Shown in pieces: positions 14,369-61,770 of a DNA stretch of 64,000 bases. The stretch spans positions 2,059,001 through 2,123,000 of the forward strand of contig NZ_CP032829.1 of NCBI RefSeq assembly GCF_003660165.1. The letters are read 5' to 3'. Origin of the DNA: Sphingomonas paeninsulae. GTDB taxonomy: Bacteria; Pseudomonadota; Alphaproteobacteria; Sphingomonadales; Sphingomonadaceae. The translations under genes and the position numbers were made by a program. How positions within the stretch are numbered: the first letter of the stretch is position 1; each line of letters opens with the position of its first letter. The notes beneath the pieces are model-generated. The model saw nothing but the letters and a program-made list of their open reading frames with translations, was not told where the DNA came from and searched no databases.

Positions 14369-15214
14369 ATGGGCAATGCCATGGCGAATGCGGAACTGCG
14401 GACGGCGCGGGCGCGCGTGCATGTCTATACCTATCGCTTTGAAACGCCTTCGCATCATACGCGCTCGCCGGGGCCGGATGTGCTGGCACTAATTTCCAGT
14501 AATGCTCCGGGTGGGGAGGGTTTTTACCGGTCTGCATCCACGACCAGTCGCATGGTTCCGCTCGGTGGTCTGATGATCGTCCCATCGGATACTTCGATCA
14601 GCGCGATGGGCCCTGGCGGTGAACGACGTCTTGCGGTTTGCACGATGGCTGACGGTATCCTGCCCAAAGGTTTTGACAGGAACGATCAGCGCCACTTGGC
14701 GATGTGCGCCGATATCCGCGATGCAAACGTACGCAGCGCAATGCAGCGAATGGCGGCCGAAGTTACGCGTCCTGGGTTCGGGTCGGACGTGTTGATCGAT
14801 GGGCTCGCTGCTGTGTTGCAGGTTGATCTTGCACGCTATTTCGATCTTACAAACCGACGCGAAACGGGGCATCGAGGCACTCTGGCACCGTGGCAGCTGC
14901 GACGAATCGAGGATTTTGTGCACGCTGCGGATGGTGGCCCACTCCGTATCGCCGATCTCGCCGCTCTGGTTGATGTAAGTCCCGGACATCTGGCGCGCAC
15001 GTTCAAACAGAGCACAGGCCGTACTGTCCACAAGTTCGTGGAGGAGGCAAGGCTTGCCCGCGCGCGGGTTTTGCTGGGCCAGACGCGTGTTCCCCTGAAG
15101 CAGGTTGCGGATCAGCTTGGCTTCAGTTCGCCCAGTAGTTTTTCGCTCGCCTTTCGCCGCGCCACGGGCACCACGCCGGGTCGGTTCAGAAGCGAGGCAA
15201 CCACGATCAATTGA
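14369..15214 (+). CDS. AraC-family transcriptional regulator
   Basis: The 281-residue protein begins at ATG 14369 behind AAGGAGAG. The C-terminal hundred residues are a double helix-turn-helix of the AraC/XylS class: LADLAALVDVSPGHLARTF for the first helix pair and VADQLGFSSPSSFSLAF followed by RATGTTPGRFR for the second. The N-terminal half does not show the cupin motif clearly and would bind an inducer. It stands between receptor 2 (divergent) and the main catabolic operon (downstream, same strand), so it is the best candidate for activating both. It shares overall layout with the second AraC gene at 32142. Confidence 0.88.
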   Translation: MGNAMANAELRTARARVHVYTYRFETPSHHTRSPGPDVLALISSNAPGGEGFYRSASTTSRMVPLGGLMIVPSDTSISAMGPGGERRLAVCTMADGILPKGFDRNDQRHLAMCADIRDANVRSAMQRMAAEVTRPGFGSDVLIDGLAAVLQVDLARYFDLTNRRETGHRGTLAPWQLRRIEDFVHAADGGPLRIADLAALVDVSPGHLARTFKQSTGRTVHKFVEEARLARARVLLGQTRVPLKQVADQLGFSSPSSFSLAFRRATGTTPGRFRSEATTIN

Positions 15215-15353
15215 TCCGTCAAAGTCGTCACTGGCGTTAAGACGGCTGCTTTGATGGCTAGATCGAAACATCGATGCGCCGATCGGAACATTCAGAACAT
15301 GCCCGATAGATCCGATCTGCGGCTATGAAGAATGACAATCCGAGAGGGATGAA

Positions 15354-17168
15354 ATGGCGAGCGAACGCATAATCAGGATCGGCGGAGGATCGGCATATTT
15401 CGCCGACAGCGCGCTTGGCGTGCCACAATTGCTGGCGGCGGGTGTGCTCGACTATCTGGTGTTCGATTACCTTGCCGAAGGCAGCATGGGAATGCTTGGG
15501 CGCATGCGGCAGGCCGATCCGGCTGCGACTTATCCGCCCGACTTTCTGTCCGTCCATGTTGGCCCCCATCTGGGCGAGATTGCGCGCCAGGGGATCAAGG
15601 TGGTCGCAAATGCCGGGGCGCTGGACCCGCTGGCGCTGGCACGTGCCGTCGAAGCGCGGATCGCTGCCGAAGGGCTGTCGCTCAAGGTTGCAGCAGTCAC
15701 CGGCGACGATTTGCTGCCGCGACTGGATGAACTCCGTCAGCGCGGCGTGAAGGATATGTTCACCGGTGCGGAATTCCCCGACGACGTTATTACCTGCAAC
15801 GCGTATCTCGGTGGCTTTCCGATTGCCGAAGCATTGGCGCGTGGCGCGGACATCGTAATAACCGGACGCATTGTCGATAGCGCGATTGTCCTTGGCCCGT
15901 TGATCCATGAATTCGGCTGGAAAGCCACCGATACCGACTTACTCGCAGCCGGGACGCTGGCTGGTCACCTTCTGGAATGCAGCACGCAAATTACCGGCGG
16001 CACGTTCACCGACTGGCGAGCTGTGGAAGGCTGGGAGACGATTGGCTTCCCGATTGGTGAGTGTCGCGCCGATGGCAGTGTGGTCATCACCAAGCCCGAT
16101 GGCACTGGTGGTCTGGTTTCGGTCGGCACGGTGGCCGAACAGTTGCTCTACGAAGTCAGTAACCCGTCCGATTATGTGGTGGCCGACGTGTCGTGCGATT
16201 TCAGCGATGTGCGGCTCACACAGCAAGCGCCGAACCGGGTTCACGTCAGTGGGGCGCGGGGAAGGTTCCGGACGCCTTTTCTGAAAGCCAGCGTTACTCA
16301 TGGAGCAGGTTGGCGAGCGATCGGTTACCAACCGATCATCGGTGAGGAGGCGGGGGCAAAGGCGCGGCGGCAGGGCGATGCATTGATCGCACGTGCACGC
16401 GCGCTGTTGCGCGGCCGCAACATGGCGGACTTCACCGACACCGCCGTTGCGGTCATCGGCGAAGAAGCGAGTTTTGGCGCACATGCCCGGATATCGGGCG
16501 CGCGTGAGGTCGTCCTGAAGATCTGCGCCGATCATCCCACGATGGAAGGGGCTGGCCTATTCGCTCGTGAACAGGCTTCAGGGATCACAACGATGTCGGT
16601 TGGCACCGGCATCAACATTGCGACCAGTGTGCTGCCGCTGACCGGGATATTCGCATTTTTGACCCCCCGCGAAGAGGTGACGGCGACAGTGACCATGGCT
16701 GGCGAGAGCTGGCAGGTGGCGAACCACGTCGGTCGCATGACGGAACCTGTACAGCCGCAACCGCCTGAGACTGCCGATGATCCGGGAACACTTATTCCGG
16801 TCGACCTGATCCGTCTCGCCTGGGCACGCAGCGGCGACAAGGGCGGCCTGTTCAATGTTGCCGTGATTGCGCGCGATCCGGCATTTCTGCCGTGGATTGC
16901 AGCCGCAATGACGCCTGAGTCGGTTGGTGACTGGTATGCCCATCTCGGGCGAGCGGGCACGCCGCCAAAGGCCGATCGTTTTCATGTGCCGGGCCTGTCG
17001 GCGCTGAACTTCGTCGTTCATGATTCACTCGATGGCGGAATTTTACGCGGTCGCGGACTCGATCCTGCCGCAAAGGGCATGGCGCAGGTCATCATGCGCT
17101 TTCCGATACCCATTCCCGCCACCCTGGCCGCACGAGCCGTCCCGGAACCCACGGAGAGTTTGGCATGA
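15354..17168 (+). CDS. AtuA family protein (DUF1446 plus ferredoxin-fold C-terminal domain)
   Basis: The 604-residue protein starts at ATG 15354 behind GAGAGGG. Residues 1-450 match the AtuA/DUF1446 pattern (RIGGGSAYFADSALGVPQ, VANAGALDP, NAYLGGFPI, ITGRIVDSAIVLGPL). The last 110 residues (LIRLAWARSGDKGGLFNVAV) match the AtuA-like ferredoxin-fold domain; fusion of the two is common. AtuA is required for citronellol and geraniol use in Pseudomonas, but its chemical role is not established. The usual partners, a geranyl-CoA carboxylase pair, are not in this window. It is the first gene of the main operon and overlaps the next start by four bases (ATGA). An acyclic or branched isoprenoid-like substrate is suggested by family but not proven. 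Confidence 0.85.
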   Translation: MASERIIRIGGGSAYFADSALGVPQLLAAGVLDYLVFDYLAEGSMGMLGRMRQADPAATYPPDFLSVHVGPHLGEIARQGIKVVANAGALDPLALARAVEARIAAEGLSLKVAAVTGDDLLPRLDELRQRGVKDMFTGAEFPDDVITCNAYLGGFPIAEALARGADIVITGRIVDSAIVLGPLIHEFGWKATDTDLLAAGTLAGHLLECSTQITGGTFTDWRAVEGWETIGFPIGECRADGSVVITKPDGTGGLVSVGTVAEQLLYEVSNPSDYVVADVSCDFSDVRLTQQAPNRVHVSGARGRFRTPFLKASVTHGAGWRAIGYQPIIGEEAGAKARRQGDALIARARALLRGRNMADFTDTAVAVIGEEASFGAHARISGAREVVLKICADHPTMEGAGLFAREQASGITTMSVGTGINIATSVLPLTGIFAFLTPREEVTATVTMAGESWQVANHVGRMTEPVQPQPPETADDPGTLIPVDLIRLAWARSGDKGGLFNVAVIARDPAFLPWIAAAMTPESVGDWYAHLGRAGTPPKADRFHVPGLSALNFVVHDSLDGGILRGRGLDPAAKGMAQVIMRFPIPIPATLAARAVPEPTESLA

Positions 17169-17971
17169 ACGACTATTCCTACCTGATGAAAGGGATCGTG
17201 CCACTTTCGACCGAAAGCAGCACGATGGTGAGTTCGTCGCGCTATCTGAACGATCCGCGGCTGCGCGATTGGGTGGCGACGCATATGTTGCGTCGCAATG
17301 GTCCTGACGTGCCGACGCCATCGGATTCGATTCAGCTCGTGATGATCCTGCGCGAGATTCAGGATATCGACCGCATCAACAGCCTGATCGCGGAGGAGCG
17401 TGCGCGGAATCCAGTGCTCGATGCATGGTTTGCGGAACGTTTCTCATCGAGCTTTGGACGCGAAGACCTTGCCAAATATGGTGCAGATACGGTCGGCGGT
17501 ATTTTCTATCGTCAGCTTGTCGACAACGATCTCCAAGTCGATATCGTGCCAAATTTCACCCCGCGCAACGACTATGAATATTTCCAGCTACGTTCGGGAC
17601 AGGTCCATGATCTGGAGCATATCCTTGGCGGCGGCGGGTTCGACTTCATCGGTGAACTCGTCCCCTATTACATGCGCCTGACGAACCTGTTCGTGCACCT
17701 TAGTCCCGAACTTGCAGGAGAGCTTGCTGCGTTTTCGATCCTCGGCTCGACACGCATCATTACTCGCGCGGTGCTGCACTATCCGCAGACCTGGCTGATC
17801 GTGCAGGAGACGATAGAGCGTGGTGCAAAGGTCGGGCGTGAATCTGATCCGATTTATATGATGCGTTATGAGGATGTGTTCGGGATGACTCCTGACGATG
17901 CGCGCACGCACCTTGGCATACGCGGTGCGCGAATGGTCGATACTTTTGCTGCATCGGCGCTGTGGTCTTGA
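17165..17971 (+). CDS. COQ4-family protein, copy 1
   Basis: The 268-residue protein contains the COQ4 metal-binding signature HDxxHx11E exactly: His148, Asp149, His152 and Glu164 in HDLEHILGGGGFDFIGE. Eukaryotic COQ4 acts on the C1 position of the ubiquinone precursor ring, with oxidative decarboxylation reported. No ubiquinone gene is nearby; instead it sits between AtuA and a serine hydrolase with overlapping or adjacent ends, as an integral part of a degradation operon. A second copy at 28401 has the motif at identical residue numbers and shares the N-terminal LSTESST and SSxYLNDPRLR segments. A catabolic reaction on a ring or acyl intermediate is proposed by inference; a scaffolding role is the alternative. 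Confidence 0.8.
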   Translation: MNDYSYLMKGIVPLSTESSTMVSSSRYLNDPRLRDWVATHMLRRNGPDVPTPSDSIQLVMILREIQDIDRINSLIAEERARNPVLDAWFAERFSSSFGREDLAKYGADTVGGIFYRQLVDNDLQVDIVPNFTPRNDYEYFQLRSGQVHDLEHILGGGGFDFIGELVPYYMRLTNLFVHLSPELAGELAAFSILGSTRIITRAVLHYPQTWLIVQETIERGAKVGRESDPIYMMRYEDVFGMTPDDARTHLGIRGARMVDTFAASALWS

Positions 17972-17973
17972 CG

Positions 17974-18843
17974 ATGGTTATGCAAGCCGCATCGATCCGG
18001 GATTATACCGTCAGGGATGGCCTGAAGCTTTTTGCCACGCATTATGGACCCGAACAGGGCGCACCGGTGCTTCTGCTTCATGGTGGAGGTCAGGCCCGGG
18101 GATCCTGGGCGCAATCGGGGGAGGCTCTCGCGCGAGAGGGGTTTCGGGCGATTGCGCTCGATATGCGCGGTCATGGTGATAGCGACTGGTCCCGCGATGG
18201 GCGCTATGCGCTGGATGCCTTCGCCGATGACCTGCGAGAGGTGATCGCGACGCTCGACCGCCCACCCGTGCTGATCGGTGCCTCACTCGGAGGACTGGCA
18301 TCGTTGCTGGCGGTTGGCGAAGTGCCAGAGGCTCCGGCAGCCGCCGTTGTGCTCGTCGATATCGTTCCCTGGATGGAAAAGCGCGGCGGTGAGCAGGTCG
18401 TCGATTTCATGCGCGGCACGTCTGGCGGTTTCGATACGATCGAGGAGGCAGCCGATGCGGTCTCCGGCTATCTTCCGCATCGTCCCCGACCTGAGCGGCT
18501 CGATGGCCTGTCCCGCAATCTTCGCAAAAAAGTCGATGGCCGTTGGTATTGGCACTGGGATCCCAATTTCGTTCGCCCGCAGGAGGGCTGGGACATGGAC
18601 AAAATCAATGAGCGGCTCTCAGACGCTGCGCAGGCAATCCGCGCACCTTTGATGCTGCTGCATGGTACGAACAGCGAAATAGTCTCGGCTGAGGGCGCTT
18701 CCCGGTTTCGGGCGCTGCTCCCGGATGCCGAGGTCGCACCGATTGCGGGCGCGCATCATATGGTTGTCGGCGACGATAATAATGCGTTTCTGGGGGCGAT
18801 CGTGCCGTTTCTCCGCCGTGTGCAGCCTATGGCCGTGGCATGA
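17974..18843 (+). CDS. alpha/beta hydrolase with Ser nucleophile
   Basis: From ATG 17974, two bases after the COQ4-like stop, the protein is 289 residues. It has HGGG near residue 36, nucleophile elbow GASLGG with Ser104, and catalytic His in GAHHMVVGDD near the C-terminus. A Ser nucleophile distinguishes it from the two Asp-type hydrolases at 621 and 4346, so an esterase, lactonase, thioesterase or C-C bond hydrolase (MhpC/BphD-like) activity is expected. It overlaps the acyl-CoA synthetase start by four bases (ATGA). In the operon it could open a lactone or ester before CoA activation; this is inference. Confidence 0.82.
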   Translation: MVMQAASIRDYTVRDGLKLFATHYGPEQGAPVLLLHGGGQARGSWAQSGEALAREGFRAIALDMRGHGDSDWSRDGRYALDAFADDLREVIATLDRPPVLIGASLGGLASLLAVGEVPEAPAAAVVLVDIVPWMEKRGGEQVVDFMRGTSGGFDTIEEAADAVSGYLPHRPRPERLDGLSRNLRKKVDGRWYWHWDPNFVRPQEGWDMDKINERLSDAAQAIRAPLMLLHGTNSEIVSAEGASRFRALLPDAEVAPIAGAHHMVVGDDNNAFLGAIVPFLRRVQPMAVA

Positions 18844-20665
18844 CGGGCTTCGTCGTCCCCTCGCGCGAGGAATCGATGGTGCGCCTGATGCGTGGCTATA
18901 CACGCGTCGCCAAATTCGCGCGCGATCTGCCCTATACGACCGCCGACAGACTGGAGGAGCGGGCCATCGACGCTGGCGACCGGCCGTTCATCCTCTTTGA
19001 GGAACAGTCGATCAGCTATGCCGAGATGAACGCACGCGCCAACCGCGTGGCACATGCGGCTGTGGCGACGGGATTGGGCAAGGGCGACGTGGTTGCGCTG
19101 TTGATGCTCAACCGTCCGGAGTTCGTGATGATTTGGCTGGGGCTTGCGAAGGCGGGCATCGTGACGGCACTCGTCAACACGACCGCGACCGACGATATTC
19201 TCGGTCATGCTTTGCGTCAGGTTGGTGCCAAGGCGCTGATTGTTGGGTCCGAACTTGCCGATGCGGTTGCTGGAATGCCAGTCGGTAGCTTGCCCGATCT
19301 GGTTTTCGAACAGTCCGAAACCGGTGCCGATCGCTCAGCGAACGGCTGGCGCGATTTCAATACGGAAATGAATTTGGCCTCGCCTGCTAACCTCGATCCG
19401 GTGACCAGAGCCGGTGTTGTGATGGCCGACCCTCTCTATCTAATTTTTACATCGGGCACGACCGGGCTGCCGAAGGCCGCCAAGATGAGCCACATGCGTT
19501 TCCTGAACGCGGGCGAGATGATGACCGGACTGATGGAGTTCGGTGCCGATGACACGATGTATTGCGTGCTGCCGCTTTATCACGGAGCGGGGGCATGGTG
19601 GTGCCTTCGGTTGCTTTGGCAACCGGACGGCCGTTCGTGTTGCGGCGAAAGTTCAGTCGCACCGCTTTTTGGCAGGACGTACGGCGGCATAACATTACCG
19701 CATTCTACTATATTGGAGAGGTCGTACGTTACCTGATGGCGACTCCCCCAGCGCCGGACGATCGCAACCATAATTTACGTGTGATGACCGGTGCGGGGCT
19801 GAAGCCCGATGTCTGGGCCGCTTTCATGGAGAGGTTCGGCGTCAGCAACGTCATCGAGGGGCTGGGATCGACCGAGGCGAACTACGGCATCACCAATGTC
19901 GATAACCGGATCGGATCGGTCGGGCGACTACCCTATCCGAAGGCCACCAACATCCGCATCCTGAAGTACGACGTCGAGCGCGGCGAGCATGTTCAGGACG
20001 CGGCAGGCAAGCATGTGGAGTCCGGGCCCCATGAAGCCGGAGAGATCGTCGCCGAGGTGCTTGATGGCACCGGGGTTGGTGGTTTTTTCGAGGGATATAC
20101 GTCCACTGAGGCAACCGAGGCCAAATTGATCCGTAACCTGTTTACGCCGGGTGATTGCTGGTTCCGATCGGGGGATCTCGTGCGTTTCGACGAGGATGAT
20201 TATTTCTTCTTCGTCGACCGGGTCGGCGATACTTTTCGGTGGAAGGGTGAGAACGTGTCGACGGCGGAGGTCGAGACGATCCTGTCGGCGTTCGAGGGGC
20301 CGTCGGTCGTTAACGTCTATGGTGTGAGCATTCCGGCGACGGAGGGGAGAGCCGGGATGGTCGCGCTGACTTATCCCGATGGCGTCGCGTTCGATCCCAA
20401 AGGATTTTATCGTTTCGCACAGTCCCATTTGGCCCATTATGCGGTGCCGCTGTTCGTGCGACTGACCTCGGTCGCGGACATGACCACCACTTTCAAACTG
20501 CGTAAGGTCGAGTCTCAGCACGAAGGCTATGATCCCGTTGCCACCGGTGGTGACCCGCTGTTCGTCGCTGATACCGAGGCGGGAAGCTACGTCCCACTCA
20601 CCACCCAGTCACTCGATCGATTGAAGATACTGCCCTTCCAAGGAGCTGAAGCTCATGCACGTTGA
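18840..20665 (+). CDS. acyl-CoA synthetase (AMP-forming, long-chain/FATP-like), split by a frameshift
   Basis: The first frame has the AMP-binding P-loop FTSGTTGLPKAAKMSH and runs to CVLPLYHGAG. The second frame resumes with MVVPSVALATGRPF, then GLGSTEANYG and the motif DRVGDTFRWKGENV that binds the adenylate ribose and catalytic region. One extra G in the run 19589-19593 joins them as YHGAGGMVVPSV and gives 608 residues, the normal length of very-long-chain/bile-acid-type synthetases. It would activate a carboxylic acid to its CoA thioester using ATP, the entry point for the acyl-CoA dehydrogenases just downstream. It overlaps the hydrolase upstream by 4 bases and the dehydrogenase downstream by 11. 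Confidence 0.87.
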
Positions 20666-21829
20666 TTTCACCCCCGAACAAAAGGCATTGCGCGCCGAAT
20701 TTCGCGCCTATCTCGACGGTATCATGACTCCCAAAGTCCGTGCCGCGACGCTCAATGCGGAAAGCGGTCCAGCCTATCGCGGAGTGATCCGCCAGATGGG
20801 CAGGGACGGCTGGCTGACGCCAGGCTGGCCGGTCGAATATGGTGGTCGCGGCCTTGATCCGTTGACGCAGAAAATTCTGCTCGAAGAGCTGGTGTTGGCC
20901 GATGCTCCATTTCCATTCGTCACGGTCAATACGGTTGGCCCTGCTCTCATGCGGCTCGGCACCGATGCACAGAAAAGCGATATTCTGCCAAGGATTGCCA
21001 GCGGCGACCTGATCTTTGCGATCGGCTATTCCGAACCCAGTGCTGGAACCGATCTCGCCAATCTGAAGACGAGCGCTGTGCGCGACGGCGACGATTATGT
21101 CGTCAATGGGCAGAAGATATTCACCAGCGGGGCAGAGGGGGCAGACTTCGTCTTCCTCGCGGTCCGCACCGATTCGGATGCGCCTCCGCATAAGGGCATC
21201 ACCATCCTGATGATGGATGCAAAACTGCCGGGTTTCTCCGTCACGCCGATCTGGACGGTTGGGGGCTTCCGCACCAACGTCACCTATTACGAGGACGTGC
21301 GTGTTCCCGCCGACATGGTCATTGGTCAGGTCAACGGTGGTTGGAAATTGATTGCCGAACAGCTTAACCACGAACGCATCGGCCTTGCCGCGCTGACTTA
21401 TGGCGCGAACGGCTGTTTCGATCAGGTGGTAGACTGGGCACGCGGAACTGCAGCGGGGGCGACGGCAAGCTCGTCGATGTGCCTTGGGTGCAAACTGCGC
21501 TGGGTGAAGCCTATGCAACACTCCGTGCGGTCGGCGTGATGGGCAATCGTGTTGCGGCGGAGGTGGCGCATGGATCGACCCGCGCCGATCTTGCCAGTGG
21601 CCTGAAGGTTTTTGGCACCGAGGGTGTGATCAAGGTCATGCGTCTGTTGCTCGACGTGCTTGGCCCCGTCGGCCTGGTGCGTGACGGATCGCCGGGAGCA
21701 GTGTTGCGTGGGCGGATCGAGCGTGAATATCGGAAGTGCCAGATCAACACATTTGGCGGTGGCACAGCCGAGGTGCTGCGCGATATGGTGGCACAAATCG
21801 GCCTCGGTATGCCAAGGGCGGCGCGCTGA
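20655..21829 (+). CDS. acyl-CoA dehydrogenase, catalytic subunit type (ChsE2/FadE29-like), split by a frameshift
   Basis: The N-terminal frame has the FAD-contact motifs IGYSEPSAGTDL and GQKIFTSGA, and ends soon after LNHERIGLA. The second frame continues with GDGKLVDVPW and ends INTFGGGTAEVLRDM. Adding one G to the run 21455-21459 restores a 391-residue protein. The Glu in NHERIGLA lies at the helix-G position used as catalytic base in isovaleryl-CoA-type dehydrogenases, while the alternative C-terminal Glu position reads GGGT. It should introduce a 2,3 double bond, probably as the active half of a heteromer with the product at 22777. The stop overlaps the MaoC-DUF35 start as TGATG. Confidence 0.86.
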
Positions 21830-22767
21830 TGGCCGAGCTTCTCGAACAGGCACGCGCATGGGTTGGGCGTGCGGCAAACACACCATCCGTCGCCCGCGAC
21901 GCCGTTAACCTGCCAATGATCCGCCGCTGGTGCGAGGCGATGGGTGAGACCAATCCGATCTATTATGACGATGCTGCGGCGCGGGCGGCGGGGCATCCGG
22001 GTATCGTGGCTCCGCCTGCGATGCTCGACGTGTGGGCGATGGCACCCTATCGGCCCGGCGGCCGAACCTCCGAAGAGAATATGCCGGTCCTCAATCTGTT
22101 CGATGCGGCTGGCTATACTGGTGTCGTCGCGACCAACGTAAAGCAACATTATGCGCGTTATCTGCGCATCGGCGATGTGGTCACTTCAACACCCAGCGTC
22201 GCGGACGTTTCGGACGAAAAGCGTACCGGGCTGGGGATCGGTCACTTCGTCACATTGGCCTATGACTTCACCAATCAGGATGGCGATGCGCTCGGTTCGA
22301 TGACGTTTCGGGTGCTGAAGTTCAAACCGAATCTCGCCCAGCCAAAGCTTGTCGAACCCACGGATACGGACGGCCCCGTTGTCGCGCATCCTCGACCTGC
22401 GATCACTCATGACAACGCATTTTTCTGGGAAGGGCTGTCCAATCGCAAGCTGCTCTTTCAGTCATTCGGTGGTCGCTTGCGTCACCCGCCGGGGCCGATG
22501 GACCCGGTAACCGGGTCGCTCGAATTCGACATTGTGGAGGCCAGCGGTCGCGGCACTATCCACAGCTTCGTTGTCGTGCATCAGCCGAGAATGCCGGGCT
22601 TTGAATACCCACTCCCTGTGGTGCTGGTCGAACTGGAGGAAGGCGTCCGCATCGTTGCCAATATGATCGACGCCAAGCCCGAAGACGTCGCCATTGGCCG
22701 TGCGGTCACCGTCGATTTCGTCGAGGTCGAGCCCGACTATGTGCTCCCTGCTTTCCGTCTCGCCTAA
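21829..22767 (+). CDS. MaoC-like dehydratase fused to DUF35 OB-fold domain (ChsH2-like)
   Basis: The start is ATG 21829, overlapping the upstream stop, giving 312 residues. Residues 1-170 form a MaoC/FAS1-DH-type hot-dog domain (MGETNPIYYDD, VAPPAML, VVATNVKQHYARYLRIGD). Residues 200-312 form a DUF35-type domain (FWEGLSNRKLLFQSFGGRL, HPPGPMDPVTG, VEVEPDYVLPAFRL). This is the architecture of mycobacterial ChsH2, which pairs with ChsH1 as an enoyl-CoA hydratase and uses DUF35 to dock the Ltp2 aldolase. The zinc-ribbon cysteines typical of many DUF35 proteins are absent. Small MaoC and Ltp2-like genes follow two genes downstream, which supports the same complex. Confidence 0.85.
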   Translation: MAELLEQARAWVGRAANTPSVARDAVNLPMIRRWCEAMGETNPIYYDDAAARAAGHPGIVAPPAMLDVWAMAPYRPGGRTSEENMPVLNLFDAAGYTGVVATNVKQHYARYLRIGDVVTSTPSVADVSDEKRTGLGIGHFVTLAYDFTNQDGDALGSMTFRVLKFKPNLAQPKLVEPTDTDGPVVAHPRPAITHDNAFFWEGLSNRKLLFQSFGGRLRHPPGPMDPVTGSLEFDIVEASGRGTIHSFVVVHQPRMPGFEYPLPVVLVELEEGVRIVANMIDAKPEDVAIGRAVTVDFVEVEPDYVLPAFRLA

Positions 22768-22776
22768 GGACCGTCC

Positions 22777-23909
22777 ATGGATTTCACCCTGACAGACGAC
22801 CAGCGCGAACTGCGCGATCTCGCGGCCCGTATCCTGAGCGATGCCGTGACCGATGAGAGCCTGAAGCAATTTGCCGCCGGCACTGCATCCTACGACGCCG
22901 GGCTGTGGACAACGCTGGCGGATGCTGGCCTGCTGGGCCTCGCTATCTCGGCGGATGCCGGTGGGCTTGGTCTCGGGATGGTTGAACTTGGCCTGCTGCT
23001 CGAGGAACAGGGGCGGACGCTTGCACCGATCCCATTGACTGCGACAATCGCGCTGGGGGCGGTGGCGATCGATCGTCACGGAAGTGCTGCACAGAAAGAA
23101 ACGTGGCTGCCAAAGGTTATTGCGGGACAGTCAATAATCACCGCCGCGATCGAGGAAGTAGGCGGGATCGATGCGATGTTGCCGACCACGCGCGCTCAGT
23201 CCGATGGCAATGGCTGGCGATTGAGCGGTGCCAAGGTGGCCGTGCCCTATGGTGCGCAGGCCGCAGCGATTCTGGTTACGGCGATGACCGTAAATGGCCC
23301 GGCGCTGTTCCTTGTCGATCCAGCCGGTCCCGGCGTTCGCGTGGATCCACAGCAATCGACCAGCGGTGAGCCGCAGGCGCTTGTCACATTCGACGGCGCG
23401 ACACTAACCGGCGATGCTTTGATTGGCAGTGTTGAGGACGGTGCCGCGATTGTGAGCGATCTGGTCGGGAGGGGCAGGTTGCGCTCGCGCAGCGGCAGGT
23501 CGGTGTCGCGGCTGAGGCGCTGCGACGAACGGCGGAATATTCGAGCAACCGGATCCAGTTCGGCAAGGCGCTCGGTTCGTTTCAGGGTGTCCAGCAACGC
23601 GCGGCGGATGCCTTTATCGATGTGGAGGCGATGCGTTCAACGTCGCTGCTCGCTGCGTGGCAATTCGATGCGGGGGTCGTGCAGGCTGCCGATGTCGCGA
23701 CCGCCAAATACTGGGCGGCGATGGGCGGTCATCGTGTCGTCCATACAGCCCAGCACCTGCACGGCGGGATGGGTGCCGACGTAACCTATCCAATCCACCG
23801 ATTTTTCCTTGCGGCCACCCAGATCGGACAGGCGCTGGGCGGTGCTGCGCCGATGCTGGCGAAAATCGGCCGCGAGGTTGCGGCAGGCAATAGCGAGCCG
23901 CTCGCATGA
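22777..23909 (+). CDS. acyl-CoA dehydrogenase, non-catalytic subunit type (ChsE1/FadE28-like), split by a frameshift
   Basis: The first frame begins MDFTLTDDQRELRDLAARIL and covers the helical and beta domains. The second frame, from about 23475, reads GQVALAQRQVGVAAEALRRT, then NRIQFGKALGSFQGVQQ and HLHGGMGADVTYPIHRFF. One added G in the run 23471-23474 gives 377 residues. At the helix-G site where the partner has NHER, this protein reads RGQVAL, so the catalytic Glu is absent, matching FadE28-like subunits that only complete the FAD site of a heterotetramer. It lies 9 bases after the MaoC-DUF35 gene and overlaps the small MaoC gene by four bases. Confidence 0.83.
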
Positions 23910-24325
23910 AGGACCAGCCGATGCGCTTTAACGATATTACCCTCGGGCAAACACTTCCCGAACTCGCCATACCGATCACGGCCAGCGCCATCGTGGCGGG
24001 CGCAATCGCGACCAATGATTTCGAAAACGTCCACCACGACAAGGCGGCTGCGCTGGCGACCGGCGTACCCGACATCTTCATGAATATCCTGACGACCAAC
24101 GGTCTGGTTCAGAGATACGTTAGTGACTGGTGCGGTACGGCGGGTCGTGTCGCGAGCGTCGAAATCAAGCTCGGCGCACCTAATTTCGTTGGCGATACCA
24201 TGATGATGACAGGGCATGTCGCCAAGCGAGAAGGCAGCATCGTCGATGTGGCCGTCAGTGGCCGCAATGCCATCGGCGAGCATGTCGTCGCCACCGTTTC
24301 ACTCGATTTCGGGAGCACGAAATGA
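23906..24325 (+). CDS. small MaoC-family dehydratase (ChsH1-like)
   Basis: The 139-residue single hot-dog protein has the MaoC hydratase signature ITASAIVAGAIATNDFENVHHDKAAA, split here as ATNDFENVHHD with the catalytic Asp and His. VASVEIKLGAPNFVGDTM follows. Length and single-domain form fit ChsH1, which alone is inactive and forms a heteromer with ChsH2. ATG 23906 overlaps the preceding stop; an internal ATG at 23921 is an alternative start. Expected role: hydration of the 2-enoyl-CoA made by the two dehydrogenases. The next gene, the Ltp2-like aldolase, overlaps by four bases. Confidence 0.85.
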   Translation: MKDQPMRFNDITLGQTLPELAIPITASAIVAGAIATNDFENVHHDKAAALATGVPDIFMNILTTNGLVQRYVSDWCGTAGRVASVEIKLGAPNFVGDTMMMTGHVAKREGSIVDVAVSGRNAIGEHVVATVSLDFGSTK

Positions 24326-25494
24326 CCGATGCACTGTCCGGCAAGGCTGCCATCGTCGGCATCGGCGCTACTGAATTCTCAAAGAACAGCGGTCGGTCGG
24401 AGTTGCGGCTCGCGGTCGAGGCCATCACTTCTGCGCTCGAGGATGCGGGCATCGATCGAGAGGAGGTTGACGGTCTTTGCACCTATACGATGGACAATAA
24501 CCCGGAGATCGAGGTTTTTCGCAACATCGGCGGACGGCAACTGAAGTTTTTTAGCCGGGTTCATTATGGCGGCGGCGCTGCCTGTGCCCCGGTGATGCAG
24601 GCGGCTATGGCGGTCGCGACCGGCGTTGCCGAAGTCGTGGTTTGCTATCGCGCCATGAACGAGCGTTCGCAATATCGCTTTGGCAGCGGCTATACTCCAC
24701 CGCCGGTCCCGAACGCGGAGTCCGCTCATTATGGCTATTATGTACCGTTCGGATTGGTATCGCCCGCGTCTTGGGTGGCGATGGCAGCACAGCGCTATAT
24801 GTACGAAACCGGCGCGACATCGGAGGATTTCGGTCGCGTTTCGGTTGCGTGTCGCCGCCATGCTGCCAACAATCCGAAGGCATGGTTTTACCAGCGGCCG
24901 ATCACTCTGGACGATCATCAGGCGTCTCGCTGGATCGTAGAACCTCTCCATCTGCTCGATTGCTGTCAGGAATCGGACGGTGCGCAGGCGATTGTGGTGA
25001 CCAGTGCAGCGCGGGCCGCCAAGCTCCGTCAGCCGCCAGCAATTATCCGTGCGGCTGCACAAGGAGCGGCGGATGACCAGCAGATGATGACCAGTTACTA
25101 TCGCCCGGATATCTCGCGATTGTCGGAGATGGATCTGGTCGCGGAACAGCTTTACGCGCAGGCGGGCGTCGGCCCCGATGCGATCCGTACTGCCACCCTC
25201 TACGATCACTTTTCGCCATTCGTACTCCCGCAGCTCGAGGCGTTTGGCTTTGCTGGACGAGGGCAGGCGAAGGACTTTGTGCGCGAGGGTAGTCTGGAGA
25301 TCGGTGGACGATTGCCGGTCAATACCAATGGCGGTCAGTTGGGCGAGGCTTATATCCACGGCATGAATGGCATTGCCGAGGGTGTCCGGCAGGTGCGTGG
25401 TACGTCGGTCAACCAGGTGCCCGGCGATGGCCTGGTCCTTGTTACTGCGGGGACGGGCGTACCGACCAGTGGTCTGATCCTCGGGGCTGCCTGA
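24322..25494 (+). CDS. thiolase-superfamily lipid-transfer protein, Ltp2-like (retro-aldolase candidate)
   Basis: The 390-residue protein has thiolase-fold features without acetyl-CoA acetyltransferase detail: AAIVGIGATEFSK at the N-terminus, HYGGGAACAPVMQAAMAVATG, DGAQAIVVTSA, TLYDHFSPFVLPQLEAFG, and the C-terminal LPVNTNGGQLGEAYIHGMNG. This is the pattern of Ltp2, which cleaves a tertiary beta-hydroxyacyl-CoA by retro-aldol reaction and needs the ChsH2 DUF35 domain. Position directly after the ChsH1/ChsH2-like genes supports that role. A true thiolase or SCP-x-like transferase is the alternative. It starts in a four-base overlap and its stop shares a base with the MFS gene. Confidence 0.85.
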   Translation: MTDALSGKAAIVGIGATEFSKNSGRSELRLAVEAITSALEDAGIDREEVDGLCTYTMDNNPEIEVFRNIGGRQLKFFSRVHYGGGAACAPVMQAAMAVATGVAEVVVCYRAMNERSQYRFGSGYTPPPVPNAESAHYGYYVPFGLVSPASWVAMAAQRYMYETGATSEDFGRVSVACRRHAANNPKAWFYQRPITLDDHQASRWIVEPLHLLDCCQESDGAQAIVVTSAARAAKLRQPPAIIRAAAQGAADDQQMMTSYYRPDISRLSEMDLVAEQLYAQAGVGPDAIRTATLYDHFSPFVLPQLEAFGFAGRGQAKDFVREGSLEIGGRLPVNTNGGQLGEAYIHGMNGIAEGVRQVRGTSVNQVPGDGLVLVTAGTGVPTSGLILGAA

Positions 25495-26678
25495 TGCTGC
25501 GCGATCGGATGCTGCTCGTTGCACTGATGCTCGGATCGGCAACGACGGCGCTGGTGCTGGTCGTGCTCATTCCGGTATTGCCGATGCTGGCGGCGTCGTT
25601 CGGTGGTGGCTCGAAAGGAGCCGCACTTTCGCAGGCGGTGATGACCGCTCCCGCCCTTGGCCTGATTACCGGCGGATTTATCAGTGCCGTGGCAATCAAG
25701 GCGCTTGGCGCACGTACCCTGCTGATTATCGGACTGGCGCTCTACGGTTTGGTGGGTTCTGCCGGTCTTTACCTGTCGGGCTCGCCGTCGTTGCTCGGTT
25801 CAAGATTTCTGCTGGGCGTCAGTGCATCATTCGTTGGGATTTCTGCGACCGCTTTGATCGCCGCGCTTTATGCGCCGGATGCGAGGGCGCGATTGCTGGG
25901 GTTTAAGGGGGCGCTGGGTTCGGTCGGCGGCATTATAGGTATTTTGATCGGTGGTGAACTCGGCTCGATCGGTGGTTGGCGGCTTCCCTTTGCGGTCTAT
26001 CTGGTAAGCTGGGTACTCCTTGCATTGGTCCTGCTTGGCCCCCGCGTTCAGGTCAAAGCCCCAGAGCGTATCGTGACTGTGGGCACCGGAAGATTACGCG
26101 TGTTGTGGCCGTTTTACGTGATGATCGTCGCGTTCGGTGTCGTGCTGATGATGACGAATACCCAATTGTCGTTTCTGCTTGCTGAGATCGGGGTGAATGC
26201 TCCCTCGGCAGTGGGACGCATTGCGGTGATGGCATCGGTTGGGGCGACGATCGGCGGGTTAAGCTATGGTTTTGTTCGGGCGCGCCTTTCATCGGGACAA
26301 TGTTTTGTGCTGGTGTTCGCGATCTGGACGGCGGGGCTTTCTATTCTCGGCTTTGCGCATGTACCGCAGACGGCCGTGATAGGCTGTGTCGTAACCGGTG
26401 CCGCAACGGGGCTTTTCCTGCCTCATATGGTGACCACGCTTGCTGCCGCAGCCGATGACGGTGTTCGCGATCGGGCAATCGCGATGTTTTACTCGGCGAT
26501 ATTTCTCGGCGATTTCCTGAACCCACTGGTGGTGGAACCGATCAGCGAACAGCTCACGCGGCACGGTGCATTTCGGGCGGTCGCGGTTTTCACATTCATT
26601 GCGATGATCGTCGCCGCGCTGGGCCGTTTTGGCCGGGCAGGGCGGCAAAATAAGGACTATGCCAATGGCGCACTATGA
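25494..26678 (+). CDS. MFS transporter, 12 transmembrane segments
   Basis: The 394-residue protein is almost entirely hydrophobic helices (for example LVVLIPVLPMLAASFGGG at the first helix) with a GALGSVGGIIGILIGGELG segment in the middle. The pattern fits Major Facilitator Superfamily permeases. It has no recognisable substrate motif. Embedded between the Ltp2-like gene (one-base overlap) and the amidohydrolase, it should move the operon's substrate or a released by-product across the inner membrane. No separate ribosome site is needed given the TGATG junction. Confidence 0.83.
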   Translation: MLRDRMLLVALMLGSATTALVLVVLIPVLPMLAASFGGGSKGAALSQAVMTAPALGLITGGFISAVAIKALGARTLLIIGLALYGLVGSAGLYLSGSPSLLGSRFLLGVSASFVGISATALIAALYAPDARARLLGFKGALGSVGGIIGILIGGELGSIGGWRLPFAVYLVSWVLLALVLLGPRVQVKAPERIVTVGTGRLRVLWPFYVMIVAFGVVLMMTNTQLSFLLAEIGVNAPSAVGRIAVMASVGATIGGLSYGFVRARLSSGQCFVLVFAIWTAGLSILGFAHVPQTAVIGCVVTGAATGLFLPHMVTTLAAAADDGVRDRAIAMFYSAIFLGDFLNPLVVEPISEQLTRHGAFRAVAVFTFIAMIVAALGRFGRAGRQNKDYANGAL

Positions 26679-28404
26679 TCTGATTCTTCGAGGTGGACTG
26701 CTTGTCGATGGGAGCGGTGGTGAGCCGGTCCAGGGCGATCTGGCGATCAGCGATGGGCTGATCTCTGCAATCGGCGTCATCGATGGCGACGGTGAGCGTG
26801 AAATTGATGTCACAGGGCGCGTGATTACCCCCGGATTTGTCGACATTCATACCCATTATGATGGTCAGGCGATGTGGTCGGAACGGATGAACCCGTCTTC
26901 TGCCCACGGCGTCACGACGGTGGTATTGGGCAATTGCGGGGTTGGTTTTGCACCTTGTCGCGCTGCCGATCACGATCTGCTTATCAACGTGATGGAGGGT
27001 GTCGAGGATATCCCCGGCGTTGTCATGGCCGAGGGGCTGGATTGGGATTGGGAGAGTTTTCCCCAGTATCTCGATGCTCTGGACCGCCGCCGACGGGATA
27101 TCGATATCGCTGCCTATCTGCCGCACAGCCCGCTGCGCGTGTTTGCAATGGGCGCGCGTGGGGCGGAACGGGCTTCTGCCACTAAGGACGATCTCGCACT
27201 GATGCGCACATTGGCGCGGGAAGCGATCGAGGCGGGTGCGCTCGGCTTTGCAACGTCGCGAACATTTATCCACCGCACGGCCTCGGGCCTTCAGATCCCG
27301 AGTTTCGACGCGTCGAATGATGAACTGGAAGCGATCGCCATGGGCCTTTCCGATGCAGGCGGCGGAATTTTGCAAGCCGTGTTGGACGTTCCGCAACGTA
27401 GCTGGGCAGAGGAGATCGGTGCGCTGAGGGAAGTGGCACGCCGTTCTGGCCGACCGGTCACGTTCACCTTTGCGGCCCCGAATGGTGGTCCGCCGATCTG
27501 GCAGCCGGTGTTCGATATGCTCGATGATGCAAAAGCACGCGGCGAAAGCCTGAGCGCACAGATTTTTCCGCGACCGATCGGCATGATTGTCGGGCTGGAG
27601 CTTTCGACCCATCCGTTTGCACAATGTCCCGGCTTTCAGCCGATTGCCGCCTTGCCGCTTGCCGAAAAACTGGCCGCGATGCGCGATCCGGTGCTTCGCG
27701 CCCGGCTTCTGAGTGAAGCGCCGATCGAAGGGCACCCGCTGGCGGCGATGGGCCGGGCGTGGGCGTGGATGTTCCCGTTATCCGACCCACCCAATTATTC
27801 GCCTTCGGCCGATGATAGCGTGGCCGCGCGGGCCGCCCGTCTTCAGGTTTCGCCAGAAGAAGTGGTGTATGATCTGCTGCTGGAAGAAGACGGCCACGCC
27901 ATGCTCTATGTCGCGCTCGGCAATTTTCACGATGGCAAGCTCGACGTGGTCAGAGACATGATCCTCCACCCCGGCACGATACTCGGTCTCGGCGACGGCG
28001 GTGCGCATTATGGAGCGATTTGCGACGCAAGCTATCCGACGTTCATGCTTGCTTATTGGACGCGGGATCGCGGTCACGATCGAATTCCGCTGGCCCTTGC
28101 CATTCGGATGCTGGCGCATGATCCGGCGCGTGTTGTCGGGCTTGCTGATCGCGGGCTGCTGGCGGTCGGCTATAAGGCGGATGTGAATGTCATTGATCTG
28201 GACCGGCTGACGTTGTGTAAACCTATGCTTTCTTACGATCTTCCTGCGGGTGGACGACGGCTCGATCAACGGGCGGAGGGGTATGATCTGACCATAGTTT
28301 CGGGTGAAATCATTGCCGAACATGGTGTGCCGACCGCGGCGCTGCCGGGGCGGCTGGTGCGTGGAGCACAGTCGGCTCCGTCCGTTGTCGGGGTGGCGGC
28401 GTGA
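26659..28404 (+). CDS. amidohydrolase, N-acyl-D-amino-acid deacylase-like
   Basis: The start is placed at ATG 26659 behind AAGG, giving 581 residues; it overlaps the MFS gene by 20 bases. Metal-site motif DIHTHYDGQ is near residue 60, the family hallmark GNCGVGFAPC follows, and GLGDGGAHYGAICDAS near the C-terminus supplies the late Asp ligand. The metallo-beta-lactam-like beta sandwich at both ends (LILRGGLLVDGSG; VNVIDLDRL) is normal for amidohydrolase-3 enzymes. Such enzymes cleave amide, lactam or related C-N bonds, but several relatives in degradation islands have no known substrate. If the substrate carries no nitrogen, ring opening of a lactone-like intermediate is possible. The stop overlaps the GTG start of the second COQ4-like gene. 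Confidence 0.82.
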   Translation: MPMAHYDLILRGGLLVDGSGGEPVQGDLAISDGLISAIGVIDGDGEREIDVTGRVITPGFVDIHTHYDGQAMWSERMNPSSAHGVTTVVLGNCGVGFAPCRAADHDLLINVMEGVEDIPGVVMAEGLDWDWESFPQYLDALDRRRRDIDIAAYLPHSPLRVFAMGARGAERASATKDDLALMRTLAREAIEAGALGFATSRTFIHRTASGLQIPSFDASNDELEAIAMGLSDAGGGILQAVLDVPQRSWAEEIGALREVARRSGRPVTFTFAAPNGGPPIWQPVFDMLDDAKARGESLSAQIFPRPIGMIVGLELSTHPFAQCPGFQPIAALPLAEKLAAMRDPVLRARLLSEAPIEGHPLAAMGRAWAWMFPLSDPPNYSPSADDSVAARAARLQVSPEEVVYDLLLEEDGHAMLYVALGNFHDGKLDVVRDMILHPGTILGLGDGGAHYGAICDASYPTFMLAYWTRDRGHDRIPLALAIRMLAHDPARVVGLADRGLLAVGYKADVNVIDLDRLTLCKPMLSYDLPAGGRRLDQRAEGYDLTIVSGEIIAEHGVPTAALPGRLVRGAQSAPSVVGVAA

Positions 28405-29222
28405 ACGACATTCCCTATCTGCTGCGCGGGGTGAGCAAGCTTTCGACCGAAAGTTCGACCCTGATAAGCTCCTCCAAATATCTGAACGATCCGCGACTGC
28501 GCATGTGGATTGCGGAGATCGTGCTGAAGCAGAACGGCCCGGACATGCCTGCACAGGCAGAGATGTATCCCGTTATCGCGCTTCTCGACGAATTGCAGGA
28601 TAAGGCGCGGATCGAGGAACTGTTCACCGCTGAACGGGCAAAGAATCCAGCGCTCGATGCCTGGTTCGAGGAAGGCTTTGTTTCCGATTACGACGCCGAT
28701 TATTTCAAGGCGTTCGGTGCGGGAACGCTCGGGCGCATTTTCTACGACGAAGTGATCGCCAAGAATTTCGAGATTGTGATTTACGAAAAGCCACCACCGA
28801 AAAGCCAGCTCGATTATTTCCTGCTGCGGTCAGGTCAAACTCATGACCTTGAGCACATCATGACCGGCGGCGATTTCTCCTATATGGGTGAACTGGTGCC
28901 TGCCTGGTTTCGGATCACCAATCATTTCAAGCATCTGAGTGCGGAACTCGCGGGCGAATTGTCGACCAGCTATATGTTCGTCACCTTGCGCTATACGGTG
29001 CGAACGCTCCTGCATTATCCCGAAGTCTGGACGATATGTCAGGACGCCGTCGAACGCGGTATGCGATGCGGGCGGGCGTCCGGGCCATTGTTTATGGCAA
29101 AATACGAGGATGTCTTTCATCTGTCGCTGGAGGATGCGCGGGTCGCACTTGGCGTAGAATGCGCGACGTTTGCGGACACCAGCGCCGCCTCAGCGGTCTG
29201 GGCCGCCAGGCCACAGCGATAG
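28401..29222 (+). CDS. COQ4-family protein, copy 2
   Basis: The 273-residue protein starts at GTG 28401 in a GTGA overlap with the amidohydrolase. It has the full HDxxHx11E metal motif, His148, Asp149, His152 and Glu164 (HDLEHIMTGGDFSYMGE), at the same residue numbers as copy 1. It diverges elsewhere, so the pair is an old duplication, not a recent repeat. It is the last gene of the long operon. With both copies keeping every metal ligand, both are probably active enzymes. Possible roles are oxidative decarboxylation or hydroxylation of two different intermediates, or formation of a heteromer; sequence alone cannot decide. Confidence 0.8.
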   Translation: MNDIPYLLRGVSKLSTESSTLISSSKYLNDPRLRMWIAEIVLKQNGPDMPAQAEMYPVIALLDELQDKARIEELFTAERAKNPALDAWFEEGFVSDYDADYFKAFGAGTLGRIFYDEVIAKNFEIVIYEKPPPKSQLDYFLLRSGQTHDLEHIMTGGDFSYMGELVPAWFRITNHFKHLSAELAGELSTSYMFVTLRYTVRTLLHYPEVWTICQDAVERGMRCGRASGPLFMAKYEDVFHLSLEDARVALGVECATFADTSAASAVWAARPQR

Positions 29223-29305
29223 TCCAAATGGACGATGCGGACTCGCCTCTTTTCGATCCATAGACGGTTAAACGCCGGTCGGCCGGTCAATTATAGGAAA
29301 AGCTC

Positions 29306-29848
29306 ATGTCTGTTCGGACACTGGAACCGACGCTGTCGACCGCTCCCACAAACGTGGAAAGCACCGCATCGGACGTCACGGCAGATTTGAAGCTGGCGCT
29401 GCGTCGGCTTGCGAAGGCAGTCGTGGTGATTACGGTTCGGCACGAGGGCCAGCGCTTTGCAATGGCGGCGACGGCGGTCGATGCGCTTTCGATGGAGCCG
29501 CCCTCTCTGCTCGCCTGCGTAAACCGTTCTGCCTCGATCTATCGCGCGATGACCGAGGCCAGCCATTTCGCGATCAACATCCTTGCGCGCGAACACGAGA
29601 ATCTGTCCCACCATTGCGGTGGCCTGAGCAAAGGCGAGGAGCGGTTCGCGATGGGAGCGTGGGAAGACGACGGAGCCGCTCCGGTACTGGCCGATGCGCA
29701 GGCCGCGATCATCTGTCGCGCCGATGCTCGTTTCGACTATGGCACGCACAGCATCTTCGTTGGCATTGCCGAACAGGTGCGGACGCATGGCATCGTCAAT
29801 CCGCTGGTCTATGTCGATGGACGATATACGGGGTCGGTGCTCGACTGA
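29306..29848 (+). CDS. flavin reductase-domain protein
   Basis: This 180-residue protein starts at ATG 29306 behind AGGAAAAG. After a 30-residue unstructured N-terminus comes the flavin-reductase-like fold: FAMAATAVDALSMEPPSLL, CVNRSASIYRAM, FAINILA and a C-terminal LVYVDGRYTGS. Such proteins use NAD(P)H to supply reduced FMN or FAD to a two-component monooxygenase. No matching monooxygenase is in the window, so the partner must be elsewhere or the protein serves another flavoenzyme of the island. It is separated from the COQ4-like gene by 83 bases and converges with the SDR on the other strand. Confidence 0.83.
   Translation: MSVRTLEPTLSTAPTNVESTASDVTADLKLALRRLAKAVVVITVRHEGQRFAMAATAVDALSMEPPSLLACVNRSASIYRAMTEASHFAINILAREHENLSHHCGGLSKGEERFAMGAWEDDGAAPVLADAQAAIICRADARFDYGTHSIFVGIAEQVRTHGIVNPLVYVDGRYTGSVLD

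Positions 29849-34253: not shown

Positions 34254-34254
<1 letters not shown>
33005..34254 (-). CDS. MFS transporter 2, split by a frameshift
   Basis: The start ATG 34254 overlaps the sulfatase stop as TAATG. The first frame covers about nine membrane helices (for example FVVMFEGFDISLTSVVLPYL at helix 1, with RFGRRPILL in the loop between helices 2 and 3). It leaves frame after LALGG near 33341; the rest (LDHMVADRRGFVGLQAM to IPETRANRLD) is in another frame. Adding one C to the run 33341-33346 joins them as LALGGTYAALLYLDHM, giving 416 residues. The GRR/ETRG-type signatures place it with sugar/aromatic-acid-type MFS permeases. Coupling to the sulfatase suggests transport of a desulfated or sulfated substrate. 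Confidence 0.82.
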
Positions 34255-38214
<3,960 letters not shown>

Positions 38215-49112: not shown

Positions 49113-49113
49113 G

Positions 49114-49377
49114 ATGCCAAATACGCGGGCGACGCTGGCGCGGTTCACCGGCAAACAGGGGCAGTATCTCGCCTTCATATGGGCCTATGCGCAGATTAAC
49201 CGCCGCGCTCCGGCGGAGGCCGACTTCTAACGCTACTTCAAGGCCACCGCAACGTCAGTTCACCAAATGCTCAAGACCCTCGACCAGCTCGGATTGATCG
49301 ACAAGCAGCCCGGTGTCGCGCGAAGCATTCAGTTGCTCATCCCGCCCCACGAACTACCCATTCTCGGAATGGACTAA
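49114..49377 (+). pseudogene. LexA/MarR-like winged helix DNA-binding protein, interrupted by a stop
   Basis: The frame from ATG 49114 reads RFTGKQGQYLAFIWAYAQIN then RRAPAEADF, a stop TAA at 49228-49230, then RYFKATATSVHQMLKTLDQL and GLIDKQPGVARSIQLLIPPH, ending at 49377. This is the LexA-N-terminal-type winged helix found as a small stand-alone protein in many bacteria (PPAEADxQRFF, VHQMxxTLERxGLI). Changing TAA to CAA would restore QRYF. It is enclosed by the right inverted repeat of the IS630-like element. Confidence 0.65.
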
Positions 49378-49404
49378 CTCGTCATAATCACTGCGACGGC
49401 AAAC

Positions 49405-60373: not shown

Positions 60374-60409
60374 AAACACCCTGTTTTCGTCGCCTTTTCG
60401 TCGGTTTTC

Positions 60410-61711: not shown

Positions 61712-61770
61712 TGTAACGGTTTTGCGCCGGTCACTTGAGAGTTTAAAACTCGTTCAAGGAGACCGACGAG

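Follow-up and report, generated by a model that had tools for sequence, protein, structure and literature searches.

Two COQ4-like genes in a probable catabolic gene series

The window analysed here, a stretch of 64,000 nucleotides (C3:2059001-2123000), comes from a 3.99-Mb genome in three contigs that belongs to a sphingomonad judging by its relatives, and carries two genes for COQ4-like proteins, COQ4-A and COQ4-B, within a same-strand gene series spanning 14369..29848 from an AraC-family regulator to a flavin reductase. The original prediction held that both copies keep an HDxxHx11E metal motif at identical residue numbers and have diverged elsewhere. Direct reading of the two open reading frames (ORFs), of 268 amino acids (aa) with an ATG start for COQ4-A and 273 aa with a GTG start for COQ4-B, located H148, D149, H152 and E164 in both (motif strings HDLEHILGGGGFDFIGE and HDLEHIMTGGDFSYMGE), and the 49% identity between the proteins bore out the divergence. 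Each gene overlaps the one ahead of it by 4 nt: the AtuA gene runs to 17168 and COQ4-A begins at 17165, and the amidohydrolase gene runs to 28404 and COQ4-B begins at 28401. Both proteins belong to a clade whose association with steroid catabolism is real, strong as to genomic context and weak as to the reaction. Genes were called with our own simple caller; those of the series are as follows.

14369..15214, + strand, AraC-family regulator (Pfam HTH_18, 2e-22)
15354..17168, + strand, AtuA family protein with a C-terminal AtuA_ferredoxin domain, the COQ4-A partner (Pfam AtuA 1.3e-130, AtuA_ferredoxin 1.1e-23)
17165..17971, + strand, COQ4-A, COQ4-like, of the AtuA-linked lineage (motif; tree; model with mean predicted local distance difference test (pLDDT) of 92.6; PDB COQ4 matches of the group profile)
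17974..18843, + strand, alpha/beta hydrolase, start possibly at 17962 (Pfam Abhydrolase_1, operon context)
18840..20665, + strand, AMP-binding CoA ligase in two frames, 18840-19736 and 19562-20665 (Pfam AMP-binding, first part)
20655..21829, + strand, acyl-CoA dehydrogenase in two frames, 20655-21539 and 21488-21829 (Pfam Acyl-CoA_dh, first part)
21829..22767, + strand, MaoC-DUF35-like fusion (partial NCBIfam HadA and BbsA matches, below cut-off; operon comparison)
22777..23784, + strand, second acyl-CoA dehydrogenase (partial NCBIfam matches, below cut-off; operon comparison)
23906..24325, + strand, small MaoC-like hydratase (partial NCBIfam HadB match, below cut-off)
24322..25494, + strand, Ltp2-type SCPx thiolase/aldolase (NF005892, 673 bits against a cut-off of 469; PDB 6ok1 lipid-transfer protein, E 6.7e-172)
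25494..26678, + strand, major facilitator superfamily transporter (Pfam MFS_1)
26665..28404, + strand, D-aminoacylase-like amidohydrolase, the COQ4-B partner (Pfam Amidohydro_3)
28401..29222, + strand, COQ4-B, COQ4-like, of the amidohydrolase-linked lineage (motif, tree)
29306..29848, + strand, flavin reductase, RutF/HpaC-like (NCBIfam RutF 5.5e-32, below the equivalog cut-off)

A separate branch of the COQ4 family

Against the Pfam Coq4 model (PF05019), COQ4-A scored 22.8 bits, just under the cut-off of 22.9, and COQ4-B 24.6 bits. A profile built from 14 relatives matched chains of the COQ4 family with solved structures, 3msq (E 4.7e-24) and 6e12/Alr8543 (E 4.2e-14), and profile-profile comparison (hhalign) with 14 ordinary bacterial COQ4s returned a probability of 98.5 over 206 columns. 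The AlphaFold2 model of COQ4-A was all-helical, with the motif residues placed in the helices at 136-155 and 162-178.

A tree was built from 158 proteins by a quick method that gave warnings of long branches meeting. One branch in it, with a Shimodaira-Hasegawa-like approximate likelihood ratio (SH-aLRT) support of 99, set the 139 clade members apart from 19 ordinary COQ4s. The clade genes were drawn from named genomes, plasmids and other genomes; 139 of 140 distinct proteins, all with the motif, were kept after a 117-aa fragment at a locus end had been dropped. Because the pattern by which the named set was found (79 loci kept of 134 relatives) already contained HD[ILF]EH, the residue counts were taken from proteins selected by profile alone. 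All 74 distinct clade proteins of that set carried HDxxHx11E, which argues that the motif is not due to chance. Residue 151, within the motif, was Glu in 68 of them, Asp in three, Met in two and Tyr in one; the corresponding residue in 18 ordinary sphingomonad COQ4s was Phe (7), Trp (7), Leu (3) or Tyr (1).

The genome has four clade genes, three of which, at 2016192, 2076168 and 2087404, lie within ~72 kb, the fourth being at 2.88 Mb. Other genomes hold up to eight or more copies; these numbers are lower bounds, since scoring with profile A1 was limited to eight candidates in each genome. Matches below 60 bits were counted as outside the clade. Local duplication of a single COQ4 within the operon was ruled out, as A and B fell into different supported lineages, one of 21 members with AtuA adjacent in 18 and the other of 10 members with the amidohydrolase adjacent in six. 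The proposal of two COQ4-like proteins embedded in one catabolic operon held for the catabolic context, and has to be recast as two lineages with different usual partners in place of one duplicated enzyme.

Association with steroid-ring degradation genes

A gene set of steroid C/D-ring type is encoded in the 33 kb (L007, L008) that immediately precede the window and lie between COQ4 copies. Its IpdA-like CoA-transferase subunit scored 260 and 255 bits against 6con and 6co6, which we take to be IpdA entries, versus 82 bits for glutaconate CoA-transferase, and a second CoA-transferase subunit is also present. The hydratase, thiolase and short-chain dehydrogenase/reductase (SDR) members, presumably corresponding to mycobacterial KstR2 genes, exceeded their family cut-offs; an HsaC-like dioxygenase reached 260 bits, below its cut-off of 450, and 257 bits to BphC. 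ipdA acts in steroid-ring cleavage and serves as a marker of C/D-ring degradation. Here it lies at 2047205, at distances of 31, 29 and 40 kb from the COQ4 copies at the three clustered positions given above.

Across 298 genomes of the family, the clade was found in 32 and ipdA in 41 (of 42 initial matches, G236, with 39% identity and 149 bits, was dropped). Both occurred together in 31 genomes, and ipdA was present in 10 of the 266 genomes lacking the clade (Fisher 2.9e-32, a value that ignores relatedness). One of the clade-positive genomes, G135, was counted on two partial matches and left out of the position count. The association persisted within genera: among the genomes in the listed tables, which this test covers, 10 genera varied, ipdA being present in all 18 clade-positive members and in 2 of the 27 without the clade, all 10 genera went the same way, and none of 20000 within-genus permutations reached the observed count. 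Of 116 listed clade genes, 30 were no more than 60 kb away from ipdA; these came from 18 of 31 genomes, many of the assemblies being fragmented.

The linkage extends to a Thauera metagenome-assembled genome, where an AtuA-COQ4 pair precedes hsaC/ipdA/ipdB/ipdC/echA20-like genes by 4.5 kb on the same strand; these genes were named from Pfam matches and order, and contamination of the assembly is possible. Named hosts of the clade include Sphingobium sp. Chol11, Sphingobium estronivorans, Croceicoccus estronivorus, Novosphingobium aromaticivorans and Novosphingobium sp. ES2-1. On plasmid pNL2 and ES2-1 plasmid p1 the order is FAD oxidoreductase, AtuA, Coq4, TonB receptor, Coq4 and D-aminoacylase. 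That the proteins are catabolic relatives of COQ4, as originally suggested, was upheld by context, and the substrate class can be sharpened to what are most probably steroids.

Partner genes of the clade

Coupling to AtuA and to the amidohydrolase recurred well beyond the window. AtuA adjoined 31 of the 139 clade genes, compared with a mean of 3.6 (standard deviation 1.8; 500 draws) for random positions, and the D-aminoacylase-like amidohydrolase adjoined 46, compared with 8.2 (standard deviation 2.8), the random positions being drawn inside the same loci, themselves chosen around COQ4. One or the other lay within three genes of 93 of the 139. Among 67 genes in 60 stretches selected among the profile matches, AtuA was adjacent to 13 and the amidohydrolase to 23, and either lay within three genes of 44. 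The spacing is operon-like: the distance between same-strand neighbours was at most 30 nt in 25 of 30 AtuA-COQ4, 17 of 26 amidohydrolase-COQ4 and 16 of 16 COQ4-amidohydrolase pairs, all 16 of the last being spaced by 5 nt or less. When the 93 genes with a partner were labelled by its type, five changes on the tree sufficed.

The possibility that ordinary sphingomonad COQ4s share this neighbourhood was rejected as far as AtuA and the amidohydrolase are concerned, neither being in the locus of any of 19 such genes. These were recognised in 18 of 20 fetched stretches, with one blind pick and one gene not recognised by the script, and were mostly the best-scoring PF05019 matches, hence a non-random set, different from the 19 in the tree. 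Loci L201-L208 hold a COQ4 of ordinary type (HDLFH/HDLYH; ~9300-10250 in each) beside Ltp2-like thiolase, DUF35, nitronate monooxygenase-like and GntR-like genes; here the COQ4 family has another catabolic linkage, distinct from that of the clade.

Regarding the partners themselves, the protein at 15354..17168 matched both the AtuA (PF07287) and AtuA_ferredoxin models of Pfam, and a sequence search for its solved relatives gave none that was convincing. The amidohydrolases belong to the same family as D-aminoacylase (1m7j family), with HxH, GNC and a late Asp kept in 21 aligned partners and relatives. In contrast to D-aminoacylase, all 21 have no His at either position aligned with H220 and H250 (1m7j numbering), which we take to be metal ligands; the second position was placed by reading the alignment. 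The partners thus probably catalyse another reaction and, to judge by these residues, are probably misnamed as D-aminoacylase in annotation, so the name tells little about their function. Six amidohydrolases of this kind are encoded in the genome, two of them beside COQ4 copies. Elsewhere in the genome (G000:C2:476762-479900), a split AtuA gene lies next to another copy of the amidohydrolase; because this pair sits apart from all four copies of COQ4, a linkage between the two partner genes themselves is also possible.

In several loci (L068:4929-5705 and relatives) a class II aldolase replaces the alpha/beta hydrolase next to COQ4, and it is adjacent in 7 of the 139 cases. Pterin-dependent chemistry was considered, since L074 has a pterin carbinolamine dehydratase-like gene after COQ4 and the pNL2 cluster has folE, and was dropped, as only two pterin carbinolamine dehydratase-like genes and one folE were found across the clade loci.

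An igr-like operon downstream of COQ4-A

The igr operon of Mycobacterium and Rhodococcus encodes ChsE1-E2, ChsH1-H2 and Ltp2 and acts on the cholesterol side chain. The genes downstream of COQ4-A form an igr-like set, with two acyl-CoA dehydrogenases, a MaoC-DUF35-like fusion that we take to be ChsH2-like, a small MaoC-like hydratase, presumably ChsH1-like, and the Ltp2-type enzyme together. The order COQ4, hydrolase, ligase, acyl-CoA dehydrogenase, MaoC-DUF35, acyl-CoA dehydrogenase, MaoC and Ltp2 was the same in all nine loci where the hydrolase follows COQ4, corresponding to 9 of the 21 members of the COQ4-A lineage, the window copy among them having split genes. AtuA directly precedes COQ4 in seven of the nine. 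The AraC-family regulator at the head of the series is likely the local operon regulator.

In eight relatives sharing the operon, the CoA ligase at the equivalent position measured 604-613 aa, the first acyl-CoA dehydrogenase 390-392 aa, and the second 372-380 aa, versus 335 aa in the window. The genes of the relatives are unsplit at these positions. Other nearby genes are split too, so the frame changes in the ligase and dehydrogenase genes are likely assembly indels; decay is possible. Both COQ4 genes are free of frame changes. Further split or shortened genes were seen at 9273-10891 and 34254-35851 of the window and at 11331-13747 of L005. Transposase-like genes or remnants, recognised by eye in translations, lie downstream at 48171-49789 and 58864-63600 of the window and at 3-5961 of L009.

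Proposed function and alternatives

On this evidence we favour, with moderate confidence, the reading that the clade has been recruited in sphingomonads to the catabolism of steroids (or related polycyclic terpenoids), as a catabolic steroid enzyme of some C-C step. Each COQ4-like protein would be an enzyme that depends on a metal and binds, in a hydrophobic groove of COQ4 type, a steroid in place of a prenylated benzoate. AtuA or the amidohydrolase would make or hand over its substrate, or form a complex with it, and the COQ4-like protein would then, on the model of the C1 decarboxylation of ubiquinone synthesis, remove a carboxyl group from an activated position such as that of a beta-keto or vinylogous beta-keto acid. 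Acting alongside the igr-like ligase/acyl-CoA dehydrogenase/MaoC/Ltp2 set, COQ4-A would most likely function during or right after side-chain removal, which it probably serves, and COQ4-B would be paired with the amidohydrolase and act on some other substrate or intermediate. Going by the family, we infer that the clade acts on a steroid acid, either decarboxylating it with the help of the metal or carrying out a related C-C step.

Several observations weigh against this reading in part. One clade-positive genome, G016, had no ipdA at 1e-40 and ten ipdA-positive genomes had no clade member, indicating that the clade lies outside the core of steroid-ring degradation. Neither partner was found within three genes of 46 of the 139 clade genes, some of them cut by locus ends, and with 'none' as a third state over all 139 genes, partner type needed 32 changes on the tree. 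AtuA was not next to COQ4 in two of the nine igr-like operons. The catabolic context is also not unique to the clade, because 8 of the 19 ordinary COQ4s adjoin another thiolase/DUF35 operon. The COQ4-like reaction itself is argued by analogy, and Glu or Asp at residue 151, found in 71 of 74 clade proteins and none of 18 ordinary ones, may mean that the reaction differs. Finally, deletion of the igr-like operon in Caenibius tardaugens left growth on bile salts intact, according to the available text of PMC12882949; the substrate of the operon may for this reason be another steroid.

The alternatives overlap with the catabolic steroid reading and with each other. The same metal site might support hydratase, isomerase or hydroxylase chemistry instead of decarboxylation, an option that we hold rather unlikely and yet worth keeping in view: the clade-specific Glu or Asp at 151 lies beside the ligands and the neighbouring enzymes differ in chemistry (class II aldolase or alpha/beta hydrolase), but none of the observations points positively to any such reaction. 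It is unlikely that the proteins are catabolic metalloenzymes for plant or fungal terpenoids generally, with steroids as one of several substrates. The high copy numbers, varied partners, TonB receptors and SDRs would fit many peripheral substrates, AtuA, named after acyclic terpenes, has a matching ancestry, and the hosts include Tom-named Sphingobium strains, whose tomato origin is presumed from the name; against this, the clade co-occurs nearly completely with ipdA. Improbable, in our judgement, is a non-catalytic role as lipid-binding scaffold or substrate carrier for AtuA or the amidohydrolase. According to PMC11495197, an organising role in the Q complex was proposed for yeast Coq4, and tight coupling to one partner would suit a subunit, but the four motif residues, needless for a pure scaffold, are kept in 74 of 74 proteins.

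A more specific form of the catabolic steroid reading, which we offer as speculation with little probability attached, is that the clade swaps a carboxyl for a hydroxyl on a steroid carbon, with AtuA or the altered amidohydrolase supplying the free acid. The swap could take place, for example, at the C17 side-chain end or at an oxidised methyl, and would equal the single-step exchange that human COQ4 is reported to carry out on the ring of the benzoate. If true, this would be an aldolase- and thiolase-independent way of side-chain shortening in sphingomonads and would explain side-chain steps of Chol11-type degraders that are described in the literature as unknown.

Ubiquinone synthesis

As anticipated in the original prediction, there were no ubiquinone genes nearby: none was recognised by eye in translations of the window, ~51 kb upstream and ~20 kb downstream, where no dedicated search was made, and methyltransferase matches in the same region stayed below cut-off. 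UbiG is encoded at C3:1254924, ~0.8 Mb from the window (219.7 bits, cut-off 103). The genome gave no match to UbiD and none to an ordinary COQ4, its four COQ4 matches all being of the clade. Of the 298 family genomes, 13 had UbiD and 169 had PF05019, clade included. By comparison of the two tables, 126 had neither, so the ubiquinone C1 decarboxylase is unaccounted for there, G154, G204 and G244 among them. These three, of the same genus and 98, 100 and 90% complete, had no UbiD, COQ4 or clade match, from which the genus evidently does not depend on UbiD or COQ4, assuming that its members make ubiquinone like sphingomonads in general. The lack of UbiD is therefore no compelling reason to assign the clade genes to ubiquinone synthesis, a service that is unlikely for them.

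It is very improbable that one or more of the four copies is the C1 decarboxylase of this genome, with an incidental catabolic neighbourhood: having UbiG without UbiD or an ordinary COQ4 would suit such a role, as would the Zn-dependent C1 decarboxylation reported in vitro for an animal COQ4 whose ancestral sequence was reconstructed (PMC7615680), but a large part of the family must rely on another solution, the three genomes above gave no match to either enzyme, and clade copies reach eight or more per genome and track ipdA.

Significance

Searches of open papers, including those for Coq4 with Novosphingobium and, among the 15 papers listed of 2,144, with sphingomonads, turned up no description of COQ4 acting in steroid catabolism, in keeping with the suggestion of a new role for the family; Coq4 combined with steroid degradation led to one unrelated paper, and AtuA combined with steroids mostly to noise. 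In the literature found, COQ4 appears only in coenzyme Q biosynthesis, and descriptions of its chemistry are recent. A large group of prokaryotic relatives with the metal site retained inside steroid operons would reveal other abilities of the fold, offer bacterial proteins for studying the COQ4 reaction, and yield candidates for unexplained steps of bile-salt and steroid degradation in sphingomonads. The ubiquinone-biosynthesis GO term that automatic annotation places on clade members, seen for N. aromaticivorans and ES2-1, is probably wrong.

Comparison with known systems

The clade shares with COQ4, the ubiquinone C1 decarboxylase (PF05019), the sequence family as judged by profile and the HDxxHx11E motif. 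It differs in forming a separate branch, in an N-terminal SSxLxSSSxYLN region of its own, in the mostly acidic residue at 151, in its many copies per genome and in its steroid context. Human COQ4 is described in reviews, as far as their available text goes, as a single-step oxidative decarboxylase in cells.

Like the igr operon of Mycobacterium and Rhodococcus and the igr-like operon of C. tardaugens (PMC12882949, available part), the window operon combines two acyl-CoA dehydrogenases, a MaoC-DUF35 protein, a small MaoC and an Ltp2-type aldolase, whereas it is preceded by AtuA, COQ4, an alpha/beta hydrolase and a ligase. COQ4 and AtuA go unmentioned in the main text of the C. tardaugens paper (PMC12882949) as far as available.

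The side-chain steps of sphingomonad bile-salt degraders are described as largely unknown in the available parts of PMC8399759 and PMC12175502, and the portions of the Chol11 literature searched do not mention COQ4. Sphingobium sp. Chol11, whose bile-salt pathway is treated in the available part of PMC8399759, has an AtuA-COQ4 pair with a COQ4 79% identical to COQ4-A. Chol11 is reported to be without Ltp2/Sal2 homologues, in contrast to the window operon with its Ltp2-type enzyme. On the plasmids of N. aromaticivorans and ES2-1, the AtuA-COQ4 pair stands next to an FAD oxidoreductase, KstD-like by our own reading, and has Lrp/AsnC regulators and ligase or amidase genes within ~17 kb.

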